Part shown: one piece after another, positions 49,480 to 55,559 of the stretch | How positions within the stretch are numbered: position 1 is the first letter of the stretch | Layout: every line of letters starts with the position of its first letter | Assembly (NCBI GenBank): GCA_021414305.1 | Contig: JAIOOS010000012.1 | Coordinates: 170,696 to 234,695, forward strand | Direction: 5' to 3' | Origin: Burkholderiales bacterium | Lineage (GTDB): Bacteria; Pseudomonadota; Gammaproteobacteria; Burkholderiales; Burkholderiaceae_C | Length of the DNA: 64,000 nucleotides | The notes under the pieces: generated by a model | Told to the model about the DNA's origin: nothing | The model's database searches: none | The model's input: the letters and a program-made list of their open reading frames with translations, nothing else | Program-made: the position numbers and the translations under genes

Positions 49480-51498
49480 TCAGCCGGCGGCGAAGGCGAG
49501 CGCGGCGCGCAGCAGGTCGCGGGCGAGCGGATCGGAGAGCAGCGACTCGGGGCGGATCAGGAAACACACGCTGCGATCGGCGGCGCGGGCCAGCACCAGC
49601 GGCGCGCCCGCCTCGTCGCGCAGCCACGGCGTCCACTCGGTCGCAGCCGTGCCGCGATCCCGGGCGGCATCGGCCATGACTCCGTCGAGCGCCAGCGTGG
49701 CGTAGCGCATCGCCACGAACGCTCGCGTCGCGCCGCCGGGGGCGCCGGCGACGGGCAGGCAGGTGACGAGCCGGCCGTGCTGCGGAGGCGTCGCCCTGAC
49801 CGGCAGGCCGGCGTCGCGCAGCAGCCGGGCCGCGGCGTCGCCGAGCGCCACCAGGCGGCCGCGTCGCGCTGAGCTCGCCTGCGCGCGCACGAAGGCGTTG
49901 TCGCCGCCCACCAGGACGGCCGGGGCCGCGGCCGGGTCGAGCACCAGGCCGAAGCCGCGCAGCGTCTCGGCCACCGCGGCGCCGAACGGGTCGCCGCCGT
50001 CGAGCAGCGCCACCGCCTCGGGCAAGACGCCGAGGGGCGAGCCGGGCGAGGCCGGGCCGCCGGCGACGCTCTGCTGCAGGTCGTCGGCGACGGCGAGCCC
50101 GAGCGCGCGCCAGAGCGACACCGCCTTGATCCGCGTCTCGAACTCCTCGCGCGCCGGGTCGGACTCGGCGAGCAGGTCGCCGCCGGTGCGAACCTCGGCG
50201 ACGCCGTCACGCACGACGGCGGCGCGCAGCATCGTGCCGACGCGCGCGCCGCCGCTGGCCCGCACCTCGAGCACCAGCCCGCCGTACCAGCCGCGCGGGC
50301 CGGCCTCGTGCGCGGCGATCGCGGCCAGCGCCGCGGCGCGCGGCGTGCCGGTCAGCATGACCGGCGCGGCCGTGGCGACGATCGCGTCCCAGGCATCGAC
50401 GCCTTCGCGCAGGCGGCCGTGCAGCCGGTCGACCGCGTGCACGACGGTGGCCAGGGTCATCGGCCGGCGCCGGTCGAGAAGCTGCAGCGATCCAGGCTCG
50501 CACAGCGGCGCGAGGTCGTTGCGCAGCGCGTCGCTGCAGACGGCGAGCGAGGCGGCGTCGACCTCTTCGTTGAACAGCAGGCGCAAGGCCTCGGCCTCGC
50601 CCACCGGACCGTGGCCGCGCGCGACGGTGCCGCAGACCGGTAACGACTCGACCTCGCGGCCGTTCACGACGAGCTGCAGGTCGGGCGACGCGCCGAACAC
50701 GCATTCGCCGTCGCCGGTATCGAGCATGAAGGTCGCCGGCGCCGGGTTCACCGCGCTCAGCTCGGCGAAGGCGCGCGCCGGCGAGCGCGCGCCGAGGCGG
50801 CGGCGAAAGCTCTGGCTCAGGGTGAGCGAGACCAGGCCCGAGCTCGCGAGCTGCGCGAGCGCGCGCGCCACGACCTGGGCATAGCCGCCGGGCGGAAAGT
50901 CGTCGTGCGCCGCGTCGAGCATCGCGGGCGCGCCGGGTGCGCCGGACCGGAGAGCGGGCCGTGGCGCGGCCTGCGCCTCGGCGAGCGCCTCGTCTGCGAA
51001 CAGCAGAGAGGCGTGCTGCCACGCGCCGGCTGCGTCGCGCTGCAGGGTGCGGGGAGAAAAGAAGAGCACGCCGAGCGGCGCCATGTCGTCGCTGGCCGCG
51101 ACCGGCGCCGCCAGCCGATGCGCTTCGAATCGAAGGGCGCCGGCGAGGATCGCGTCGTCGCCAGCGTCGTCGCCGTTCCCGAAGTGGGAGAGAAAGGCGC
51201 GCAGCGAGGCGATCGCGCCCGCGCCGCCGCCGCGCTTCGATGCTCGCCGCCACGCCGCCAGGGCGGCGTGCTCGAGCAACGCAACGCCGAACGCATCGAG
51301 CGCCTCGATCTCGAGGCCGTCGGCATGAACGCGCAGCGCCAGCGAGGGATCGACGAGCAGCAGCGCCGCCCGCGGATGCATGCCGGCGACGCCGGCATCG
51401 CATCCGAAGTAGAGACCGGGCAGGCCGTCGAGCCGGGCCCTTGCGGCCTCGACTTCCGAAGCCGGGGCCGGACGCCGCTCGACGGTGTAGCGGAGCAG
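49480..51498 (-). CDS. TrpE(G)/PhzE-like fusion protein with degenerate active sites
   Basis: About 672 residues. It has a chorismate-binding domain (for example GECVFGASPDLQLVVNG, ALRNDLAPLCEPGSLQL, AGPRGWYGGLVLEVRASGG) followed by a class I glutamine amidotransferase-like domain. By hand alignment with PhzE and TrpE(G), the KEESE block is replaced by VDAAS, GAPK by GTPR, the amidotransferase VCLGHQ by VALGDAA and HPES by RPES. So both the Mg/chorismate site and the Cys-His pair are altered. No ATG/GTG/TTG lies near the homologous start: CTG 51498, behind AGGGG, is my choice, and ATG 51381 would cut off clearly homologous residues. It follows a Bug gene and a chorismate-mutase-like gene. Confidence 0.75.
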   Translation of the reverse strand: MLRYTVERRPAPASEVEAARARLDGLPGLYFGCDAGVAGMHPRAALLLVDPSLALRVHADGLEIEALDAFGVALLEHAALAAWRRASKRGGGAGAIASLRAFLSHFGNGDDAGDDAILAGALRFEAHRLAAPVAASDDMAPLGVLFFSPRTLQRDAAGAWQHASLLFADEALAEAQAAPRPALRSGAPGAPAMLDAAHDDFPPGGYAQVVARALAQLASSGLVSLTLSQSFRRRLGARSPARAFAELSAVNPAPATFMLDTGDGECVFGASPDLQLVVNGREVESLPVCGTVARGHGPVGEAEALRLLFNEEVDAASLAVCSDALRNDLAPLCEPGSLQLLDRRRPMTLATVVHAVDRLHGRLREGVDAWDAIVATAAPVMLTGTPRAAALAAIAAHEAGPRGWYGGLVLEVRASGGARVGTMLRAAVVRDGVAEVRTGGDLLAESDPAREEFETRIKAVSLWRALGLAVADDLQQSVAGGPASPGSPLGVLPEAVALLDGGDPFGAAVAETLRGFGLVLDPAAAPAVLVGGDNAFVRAQASSARRGRLVALGDAAARLLRDAGLPVRATPPQHGRLVTCLPVAGAPGGATRAFVAMRYATLALDGVMADAARDRGTAATEWTPWLRDEAGAPLVLARAADRSVCFLIRPESLLSDPLARDLLRAALAFAAG

Positions 51499-51506
51499 CG
51501 CGGCCC

Positions 51507-52508
51507 CTAGTCGGCGGTGGCGCCGCTGCGCTTGATGATCGGCGTCATCACGGTCAGCTCGCGCTTCATGAAGTCGCGCAGGTCGGCGACCGAGCCGCCG
51601 ACCGGCTCCATGAACTGGCCGGCGAGCTTCTCGCGCACCTCGGGCAGGGCGAGCGCGGCGTTGATCTCCTGGTTCATGCGCTCGACCACCTCGTTCGGCG
51701 TCGACGCCGGCGCCATCACCGCCATCCAGGCCATGTTCTCGATCTCGGGCAGACCCGCTTCCTTCATCGTCGGAATCTCCGGCGTCAGGGCGCTCCGCTT
51801 GGCGGTGGAGACGGCGAGCGGACGGAGCTTGCCGGCCTTGACCTGCGGCATCACCGCCACCGCCGGCACGCAGGCGAACTGCACGTCGCCCTGCAGCAGG
51901 GCGAGGATCGCCAGCGGCGACGAGGCGTACGGGATGTGCACCGCGAAGGTGTCGGTCTTGGCCTTGAGCAGCTCGACGCCGAGCTGCGAGAGGCTGCCGA
52001 CGCCGGTCGACGAGAAGTTGAACTTGCCGGGGTTGGCCTTCATCGCCTTGACCAGCTCGCCGAGGCTGTTGATGCCGGAATCGGTGCGGACGGCGCAGAC
52101 GTTCGCCTGCGCGCCGCCGAGCACCACCGGCCGCAGCTCGGTGAACGGGTCGTAGCCGAGCTTCTTGTAGAGCACGGTGTTGTAGACCAGCGGCCCGTTG
52201 GTGCTGATCAGGAAGGTGTAGCCGTCGCCCGGCGAATGCGCGACCGCGCCGGTGCCGGTGTTGCCGCCGGCGCCCGGCCGGTTGTCGACCAGCACCTGCT
52301 GGCCGAGCTTCGGCCCGATCTTGTCGGCGACGATGCGCGCGAACACGTCGGGCGAGGAGCCGGCGGCATAGGGAATGACGATGCGGATCGGCCGGTTCGG
52401 CCACGGCCCTGTCTGCGCGCCGGCGAGGCCGGCGGTACCGGCGAGAAGCAGGGCCAGGCCAGCGCGAACAAGGGCGGCGCGGCGCACGGAAGTGGTCGAT
52501 GAGGTCAT
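51507..52508 (-). CDS. Bug/TctC family periplasmic substrate-binding protein
   Basis: A 333-residue Bug protein with a signal peptide (ALVRAGLALLLAGTAGLAGAQ) and the motifs IVIPYAAGSSPDVFAR, VDNRPGAGGNTGTG and SALTPEIPTMKEAG. It overlaps the mutase-like gene by ATGA and precedes the TrpE(G)-like gene by a few bases. A solute receptor inside a chorismate-type operon suggests an imported carboxylate that is related to the pathway. This is the third orphan receptor of the family in the window. Confidence 0.9.
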   Translation of the reverse strand: MTSSTTSVRRAALVRAGLALLLAGTAGLAGAQTGPWPNRPIRIVIPYAAGSSPDVFARIVADKIGPKLGQQVLVDNRPGAGGNTGTGAVAHSPGDGYTFLISTNGPLVYNTVLYKKLGYDPFTELRPVVLGGAQANVCAVRTDSGINSLGELVKAMKANPGKFNFSSTGVGSLSQLGVELLKAKTDTFAVHIPYASSPLAILALLQGDVQFACVPAVAVMPQVKAGKLRPLAVSTAKRSALTPEIPTMKEAGLPEIENMAWMAVMAPASTPNEVVERMNQEINAALALPEVREKLAGQFMEPVGGSVADLRDFMKRELTVMTPIIKRSGATAD

Positions 52509-52882
52509 GAAGTGATCGGCTCGGTTTCTGCGAAGAAGCGCTCCTCGCCGGCGATGAAGCCGGCGACGAGCACGCGGTAGGCGGCCTCGACGACGTCGGG
52601 CAGCGAGGGGAATTCGGCGGCTCGCGCTGCCGCGAGCGTGCGCACGCGGTCGAACACCGCCGCCTGCCGCTCGGGCGCCGCGAGCTGGAAGGCGTCGCGC
52701 TTGAAGCGGGTGGCGTCGCGCACGCACAGGGCGCGGGCGGCGAGCAGCTCGACGATCTGCGCGTCGAGCGCGTCGATCCGCTCGCGCAGCGCGCCGAGCG
52801 TTTCCGCCTGCGGCTGGTAGTGCGGGTCGCGGAAGCGGCGAACGGGCGCGGCGTCGACGCGGGGTTCCTGGGCAGAGGTCAT
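52505..52882 (-). CDS. AroQ/PchB-type chorismate mutase or isochorismate-pyruvate lyase
   Basis: A 125-residue all-helical AroQ-fold protein. Aligned by hand to PchB, active-site residues correspond as R14=R33, R31=R50 and K42=K61 with identical spacing, and APERQAAV parallels PchB's APERVAAM. The glutamine at PchB position 90 corresponds to E113 (IAGEERFF). This fits PchB-like lyase or mutase activity on isochorismate or chorismate. There is no signal peptide, and the first 28 residues are a variable extension. It opens a three-gene operon with the Bug and TrpE(G)-like genes. Confidence 0.8.
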   Translation of the reverse strand: MTSAQEPRVDAAPVRRFRDPHYQPQAETLGALRERIDALDAQIVELLAARALCVRDATRFKRDAFQLAAPERQAAVFDRVRTLAAARAAEFPSLPDVVEAAYRVLVAGFIAGEERFFAETEPITS

Positions 52883-54396: not shown

Positions 54397-54843
54397 ATGA
54401 TCGCTCGTCGCTTCTCTCTCGCCCTCCTCGCCGCCGCGACTCTGGCCGCAGCCGGCTGCAGCATGACCGGCATGTCCGACAGCAAACCGATGGTGATGGG
54501 CGGCGAGATGAACGTGCCCCTCTCGGCGAAGAACGAGGTCCCGCCGAACGCCAGCACCGCGGTCGGCACGGCGCGAGTCTGGCTCGACGGCATGAACCTC
54601 AAGTGGACCGTCACGTACTCGGGCACGACCGGCCCGGTGACGGCCGGCCACTTCCACGGTCCGGCCGCGCCGGGAGCGAACGCCGGCGTCGTCCTGCCCT
54701 TCAGCGGCTCGATGGCCAGCCCGATCGAAGGCTCCGCCACCTTGACACAGGCCCAGGTCGACCAGCTCAAGGCCGGCATGTGGTACGTGAACCTGCATAC
54801 CGCCGCCAACCCCGGTGGCGAGATTCGCGGCCAGGTCAAGTAG
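54397..54843 (+). CDS. CHRD-domain lipoprotein (copy 1)
   Basis: A 148-residue lipoprotein. The lipobox LAAAGC ends the signal peptide at about residue 21. The rest is a single CHRD (chordin-like) domain: MNVPLSAKNEVPPNASTAVGT, LKWTVTYSGTTGPVTAGHFHGPA and GMWYVNLHTAANPGGEIRGQV, with conserved histidines in HFHGPA. GAGGAAATCCC before the ATG supports the start. CHRD proteins are common in Burkholderiales, with no settled function. A paralogue lies 116 bases downstream. Confidence 0.9.
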   Translation: MIARRFSLALLAAATLAAAGCSMTGMSDSKPMVMGGEMNVPLSAKNEVPPNASTAVGTARVWLDGMNLKWTVTYSGTTGPVTAGHFHGPAAPGANAGVVLPFSGSMASPIEGSATLTQAQVDQLKAGMWYVNLHTAANPGGEIRGQVK

Positions 54844-54866: not shown

Positions 54867-54959
54867 TCCTGTTCCACGGCGGGGTCGCCGCTGCGCCTAT
54901 CATCGCGCCGCCGCACCCGCCGTCCTGACGACGGCACCCTACTCTCGCTGGAGATCGCG

Positions 54960-55559
54960 ATGCACGTTCGTCGACTTGCTTTCGGAACCGCCCTCGTCGC
55001 CGGAGCCTGCGCGCTCGCGGCCTGCAGCAACGTGAGCATGCCCACCCTCCCGGGCTCGGCACCGACCGCACCGGCCAAGCCCGCGATGCCCTCGGCAACC
55101 GCTCCCACGGCACCGGCCGCACCGGCCATGCCCACCGCGCCGGCCATGCCGACCGGTCAGCAGGCCGCCCAGGCGGCCCAAGCGCAGGCGCAAGGCATGA
55201 TCATCGGCAACCTCATGTCGGCGACCCTCAGCGGCGCCACCCAGGTTCCGCCGAACAGCACCACCGGCAGCGGCACCGCTTCGATCAAGCTCGACGGCGA
55301 CGTTCTCAGCTGGGTCGTCACCTATTCGGGCCTGACCGGCCCGGTGACCGGCGCGCATTTCCACGGCCCGGCGGCCGCCAATGCCAATGCCGGCGTGATC
55401 GTGCCGTTCGCGGGCAGCCTGGGCAGCCCGATCAACGGCAGCCAGAAGCTGACCGCGGCGCAGATCGCCGGACTGAGAGGCGGGCTCTGGTACGTCAACC
55501 TGCACACGGCCGCCTTCCCGGGCGGCGAGATCCGCGGCCAGGTGACCGCGGCCCGGTAG
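54960..55559 (+). CDS. CHRD-domain lipoprotein with Ala/Pro-rich linker (copy 2)
   Basis: A 199-residue paralogue with lipobox ALAAC at about residue 22. A low-complexity linker of APTAPAKPAMP-type repeats (about residues 33-75) lifts the CHRD domain away from the membrane; the domain itself has TLSGATQVPPNSTTGSGT, GPVTGAHFHGPAAANANAG and GLWYVNLHTAAFPGGEIRGQV. GGAG lies six bases before the ATG, which is at 54960. The two CHRD domains are clearly related but have diverged, and only this one carries the linker. Confidence 0.9.
   Translation: MHVRRLAFGTALVAGACALAACSNVSMPTLPGSAPTAPAKPAMPSATAPTAPAAPAMPTAPAMPTGQQAAQAAQAQAQGMIIGNLMSATLSGATQVPPNSTTGSGTASIKLDGDVLSWVVTYSGLTGPVTGAHFHGPAAANANAGVIVPFAGSLGSPINGSQKLTAAQIAGLRGGLWYVNLHTAAFPGGEIRGQVTAAR

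Follow-up and report, generated by a model that had tools for sequence, protein, structure and literature searches.

FUS, a protein of 672 residues encoded in the window (the whole 64,000-nucleotide stretch of Burkholderiales DNA analysed here), is one of a small group of conserved proteins whose ancestor, as their sequence relationships indicate, was an enzyme of the tryptophan pathway. Both active sites inherited from that ancestor are altered, as the initial annotation had claimed and as alignment with seven genuine TrpE(G) sequences and with Salmonella TrpE confirmed. FUS is encoded next to a PchB-like enzyme and a periplasmic binding protein, and our tentative reading is that it has been re-purposed to act with the former.

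Architecture, ancestry and family of FUS

The FUS gene closes a series of genes on the minus strand and forms an open frame of 672 codons, from 51498 to the stop at 49480 (49480..51498, minus strand), identified as a TrpE(G)-type fusion by alignment. No ATG, GTG or TTG start codon was found near the FUS N terminus in the window. At the corresponding codon the nearest relative (L046) has TTG, and most others have ATG or TTG; the window copy has a CTG there, directly after the TctC stop and with an SD-like AGGGG upstream, and this CTG (51498-51496) is the likely start. A promoter and terminator scan and a repeat search yielded nothing informative.

An N-terminal region is followed by a chorismate-binding (MST) domain (PF00425; 50125..50883, minus strand), which scored 148 bits against a Pfam cut-off of 27, and by a C-terminal class I amidotransferase-like domain without the catalytic Cys and His (residues 490-672; 49483..50031, minus strand), recognized from the alignment and the predicted fold. 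A Pfam search for a GATase domain in FUS gave no match, whereas a bona fide TrpE(G) from another genome matched PF00117 at 168 bits. The best NCBIfam models for FUS were TrpE(G) models, all far under their cut-offs: TIGR01815 and NF010081 gave 236-244 bits against cut-offs of 739 and 645, the window copy scoring 235.6 bits with TIGR01815, below the curated threshold of 739. Over its full length FUS aligns with TrpE(G), an MST domain and then a class I GATase-type domain in a single chain. An AlphaFold2 (AF2) model from 25 family sequences reached a pLDDT of 84.8, and in a Foldseek search its MST half matched TrpE and PabB, while PhzE aligned across both halves. Modelled alone by AF2, the C-terminal domain reached a pLDDT of 90.5 and a TM-score of about 0.7 to class I amidotransferases, PabA and TrpG; according to these models the fold has survived in a domain that is no longer an enzyme. 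The initial description of FUS as PhzE-like is thus apt for fold and domain order only, since the FUS sequence profile lies far closer to TrpE (159 bits to 1qdl) than to PhzE (49 bits to 3r74). The PhzE ADIC synthase shares the arrangement of an MST domain before a GATase domain; however, FUS has lost the amidotransferase residues, and no phenazine genes were seen nearby.

A search of 401 same-family genomes with a two-sequence profile retrieved five further full or near-full copies in addition to the window copy and that of congener G004. When 84,980 species genomes were pattern-scanned with a seven-member alignment, 27 FUS loci emerged, some of them in genomes already found, and all were assigned to betaproteobacteria or to wider groups containing them; the named hosts are Ramlibacter, Polaromonas, Schlegelella, Rubrivivax and one Comamonadaceae. 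Sampling 349 genomes from the order added one more FUS. The 28 members that were compared are all from Burkholderiales/Betaproteobacteria. They can be divided into clade A, which includes the window copy and has the gene order PchB-like, TctC, FUS, and clade B, in which the order is mostly PchB-like, FUS, TctC.

In a tree that was built without PhzE and carries a long-branch warning, the FUS family formed a monophyletic group (100/99), with alphaproteobacterial TrpE(G) as its sister (97/92). The TrpE(G) ancestry proposed at the outset is therefore supported by tree, alignment and NCBIfam matches alike. Domain order, end-to-end alignment, sister-clade position and a CxDxDRNDK-type signature common to clade B link FUS to the alphaproteobacterial TrpE(G) proteins (TIGR01815/NF010081). 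FUS differs from them in the substitutions 263 to Ser, E309 to Asp and E361 to Ser or Ala, in the absence of the GATase Cys and His, and in its operon.

Active-site residues and selection

Active-site residues were surveyed in the 28 members under Salmonella TrpE and MbtI numbers, whose equivalence we infer from a constant offset of 64 at most of these sites. The S224 codon (50827..50829, minus strand) occupies the position of Q263 (TrpE)/K205 (MbtI), which is Ser in 28/28 FUS proteins and Glu in 7/7 TrpE(G) proteins, the water-activating Lys of isochorismate synthases (K147/K205) thus being replaced by Ser in every member. At the general acid E309/E252, represented by the D273 codon (50680..50682, minus strand), all 28 have Asp. 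The direct Mg2+ ligand E361/E297 corresponds to the S317 codon (50548..50550, minus strand) and is Ser in 23 and Ala in five of the 28. In MbtI, K205 serves to activate the attacking water and E252 to protonate the leaving hydroxyl, and Mg is bound directly by E297 and E434 and via water by E294 and E431 (PMC8008425). Two of these changes, ASPE to ASPD and the replacement by Ser of the nucleophile position (Glu in TrpE(G), Gln in TrpE), had not been listed in the initial annotation.

The motifs that it had listed, VDAAS and GTPR in the chorismate half and VALGDAA and RPES in the amidotransferase half, are present as described when aligned, and two of them call for a narrower reading. VDAAS represents a loss at E361, but its Asp is ancestral, as TrpE(G) itself has KDESE; GTPR is found in the window and throughout clade A, whereas clade B retains the Lys. 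Moreover, H398, Y449, R469, G483, E495, E498 and K502, in ligand-site and metal-site columns, are retained in 28/28 members, and position 358 of the metal site is Asp or Glu in all of them. The Mg2+ site is incomplete, with Ser or Ala at the E361 equivalent in 28/28 and the equivalents of E358 (as Asp or Glu), E495 and E498 kept. Most residues that hold the substrate persist, as do three of the four acids at the metal site; with H398, Y449, R469, E495, E498 and K502 intact, 'degenerate' has to be understood as selectively altered. Two further substitutions, T425 to Met and K431 to Arg, are confined to clade A. No new acid able to replace E361 family-wide was seen in the FUS alignments, and an Asp at G485 in clade A is not common to clade B. 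A Cys at window residue 289, next to the substrate-loop Gly-Thr, is new and invariant in FUS (Ser in TrpE(G)). The window copy has all of the family-invariant active-site residues.

In the amidotransferase-like half the catalytic Cys is absent from 28/28 members, and the catalytic His position (HPES to RPES), encoded by the R649 codon (49552..49554, minus strand), is Arg in 28/28. The outcome that the initial annotation had named as refuting its claim, catalytic residues conserved at shifted positions, was looked for and did not appear: across the family this half has no invariant Cys, His or Glu. With no GATase catalytic residues left, this half should be unable to supply ammonia from glutamine.

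The initial annotation had taken the intact frame as a sign of selection. In GC-rich DNA antisense open frames are long, so that the open frame of the window is by itself little proof. For the family, however, selection is supported: all checked frames among the 28 members are open, and purifying selection, strongest in the chorismate half, is indicated in close pairs. In the closest Polaromonas pairs (Nei-Gojobori; dS below about 0.5), dN/dS was about 0.09-0.13 for the MST domain, 0.19-0.24 for the amidotransferase-like half and 0.24-0.38 for the N-terminal region, values that apply to these pairs, as the window copy has no relative close enough for a reliable value of its own. One clade B pair showed higher values (0.21, 0.42 and 0.76, respectively).

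Operon partners and possible roles

Upstream of FUS, a PchB/AroQ-type pericyclic enzyme of the isochorismate lyase/chorismate mutase family (52505..52882, minus strand), whose stop overlaps the TctC start (ATGA), precedes a Bug/TctC periplasmic solute-binding protein (51507..52508, minus strand; PF03401, 214 bits), for which the nearest solved structure is the terephthalate-binding TBP. The PchB-like, TctC and FUS genes are neighbours, in varying order, in nearly every locus that is not truncated by a contig end; in G112, FUS stands alone and the PchB-like/TctC pair lies elsewhere in the genome. The nearest solved relative of the PchB-like partner is PchB (66 bits, versus 32 for chorismate mutases), and the equivalents of R14, R31 and K42 are kept. 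The cut-off of 126 bits of the PchB model NF005475 (PRK07075) is not reached by the partner in the window (53 bits) or in clade B (82 bits). Val55 is a diagnostic site linked with isochorismate-pyruvate lyase (IPL) activity (PMC12329711); it is Val in clade B and Gln, thus neither Val nor Glu, in clade A including the window. A PchB-like gene beside an MST-family gene recalls the PchA/PchB salicylate pair. However, FUS clusters with TrpE(G), carries a dead GATase domain and is without the Lys, Glu and Mg ligand of isochorismate synthases. The TctC protein likewise resembles the aromatic-acid binding proteins of the Bug/TctC type (TBP/TphC; PF03401, 185 bits to the terephthalate-binding protein), but no TctAB genes were noticed in the immediate operon. 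The operon theme may be uptake of, and chemistry on, ortho-substituted benzoates or chorismate-type precursors. Literature searches on operons of this kind and on MST pseudoenzymes returned nothing relevant.

The PchB-like and TctC genes are the more widespread unit and FUS an optional addition to it, the two genes being found together without FUS in over a dozen family genomes. Congener G002 (L034:1619-1813) retains only a relic of about 52 residues after an intact pair, with a CoA-transferase gene in the place of FUS, and the FUS gene is therefore dispensable in the genus of the window. In the draft contigs of congeners G001 and G003, the former ending inside TctC, the pair is present and FUS was not found.

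The reading that we prefer, although with somewhat less than even confidence, is that FUS is a re-purposed chorismate-site protein working with its PchB-like partner without glutamine or canonical chemistry. It draws on the changes common to all 28 members, the purifying selection, the retained ligand-site and metal-site columns, the tree, the AF2 models and the operon context, including the FAD oxidoreductase and the AndAc-like oxygenase described below. The ligand of FUS would be chorismate or something closely similar, which the Bug protein may import, and FUS would perform or prepare a non-canonical step that the partner completes, a division of labour like that of PchA and PchB; the pathway may be the metabolism of an ortho-substituted benzoate of salicylate or anthranilate type, and the dead amidotransferase domain may serve as a structural or regulatory scaffold. 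Points against it are the changes of T425 and K431 in clade A, the dispensability of the gene and the Gln at the diagnostic site of the window partner. The main rival is a pseudoenzyme proper, a possible but less probable role in which chorismate or a product is bound by FUS but left unconverted, and FUS acts as a regulator or scaffold of the PchB-like partner or as a sensor of chorismate supply. In its favour are the substitution of three catalytic positions in all members alongside retained ligand-binding residues, a dead amidotransferase half still under selection and a small partner enzyme encoded next door. However, a mere binder would hardly need E495, E498 and an acid at 358, kept in 28/28, and the partner pair exists in many genomes without FUS. 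The retention of the pocket together with the three metal-site acids is why a catalytic role is favoured over pure binding. That FUS is instead on its way out of this genome and functionless is the least probable account; the unusual CTG start, the relic in G002 and the failure to find FUS in G001 and G003 would suit it, but 672 codons are open at a GC3 of 0.92 similar to that of the neighbouring genes, the window copy has every family-invariant active-site residue, an SD-like sequence precedes the CTG, and the frames of all relatives are open.

Characterised MST enzymes require Mg2+, and they are a textbook case of a few residues steering one scaffold between amination, hydration and elimination. 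MbtI, too, requires Mg2+ (PMC8008425). The loss of E361 and of the nucleophile residue, as read from the alignment, argues against classical MST turnover by FUS. It is unlikely that FUS is an altered but classical enzyme, namely a synthase of isochorismate, anthranilate or aminodeoxychorismate that uses ammonia or water and in which the losses are compensated, for example one standing in for PabB. Besides a gene pairing that resembles PchA/PchB, this alternative draws on PF00425 counts, the extra PF00425 protein being taken as usually PabB, as assumed from frame length: a third such protein is missing from 26/27 FUS genomes, whereas a second is missing from only 65/180 family genomes without FUS or the pair (Fisher 9e-10, not corrected for kinship or phylogeny). 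However, the second protein is also missing from most of the genomes that have the pair without FUS (14/16), which argues that FUS is not the replacement of PabB, and no compensating residue is conserved family-wide, the clade A Asp at G485 being absent from clade B. In the genome of the window (G000), TrpE and FUS are the sole PF00425 proteins and PabB is missing; FUS-free congeners have TrpE alone. Because congeners (G001, G003 and G005) do without both, FUS was not read as replacing PabB, strong as the association is. A search of the window's genome for p-aminobenzoate synthesis of the CADD type gave one match of 25.6 bits, under the cut-off. A Mg-free chorismate mutase side activity of MST enzymes was also considered and dropped, as the reports of it for MbtI are attributed to faulty purification (PMC8008425).

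Replacement of UbiC was rejected as a general role of FUS: UbiC (PF04345) occurred in only 2/57 family and FUS genomes and is thus nearly absent with or without FUS, and an FkbO/Hyg5-type chorismatase model was clearly matched in 8/57 genomes, all FUS-free. For most of the 57 genomes this leaves the source of 4-hydroxybenzoate for ubiquinone unaccounted for. In many Burkholderiales genomes neither the source of 4-hydroxybenzoate nor that of p-aminobenzoate is accounted for, and FUS may mark an unknown route from chorismate in this order. A bolder and improbable version of the preferred reading is that FUS and its partner form a new pair that consumes chorismate, needs neither glutamine nor classical Mg2+ chemistry and yields a hydroxy- or aminobenzoate precursor where UbiC, FkbO/Hyg5-type chorismatase and PabB are not found. 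On this version, two clade B FUS genes (L063:151-2927 and L068:2832-6402) would sit in an O2-independent ubiquinone gene cluster; UbiT-, UbiX- and UbiD-like genes lie upstream of PchB-like, FUS and TctC genes in both loci, with a UbiV-like gene also in L068. With most of the pocket kept, base, acid and metal ligand replaced, the amidotransferase disarmed and both halves under selection, the FUS family represents a natural test of how the MST scaffold can be rewired.

Other genes around the locus

In six genomes (L163, L164, L165, L167, L168 and L169) the FUS-free pair is preceded by a LysR gene and by a gene for an oxygenase large subunit, of a single type throughout, in what is likely an uncharacterised aromatic-acid operon with an AndAc-like oxygenase. 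Two of the six large subunits were scanned, each scoring roughly half the cut-off for AndAc (anthranilate 1,2-dioxygenase), and three of the loci showed a small subunit when read. An FAD-dependent oxidoreductase (PF12831) joins the FUS operon in four loci, one in clade A (L059) and three in clade B (L062, L067 and L071). ABC-importer-like genes, named from sequence by eye, lie upstream in L064 and L066, and an FMN lactate-dehydrogenase-like gene lies upstream in the Polaromonas loci, perhaps through shared descent only.

In the window, a sulfatase gene (PF00884; 52917..54230, minus strand) is located directly upstream of the PchB-like gene. It has the same place in congeners G002 and G003 but is not a recurrent neighbour of the locus in other genera, and it is therefore probably outside the operon core. 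Two tandem, similar genes for CHRD-like small lipoproteins follow at 54397-54843 and about 54940-55559, with similar ones beside the locus in G002 and G003. In several family genomes (L125-L129 and L131), a chorismate-mutase/PchB-like gene lies directly behind trpE.
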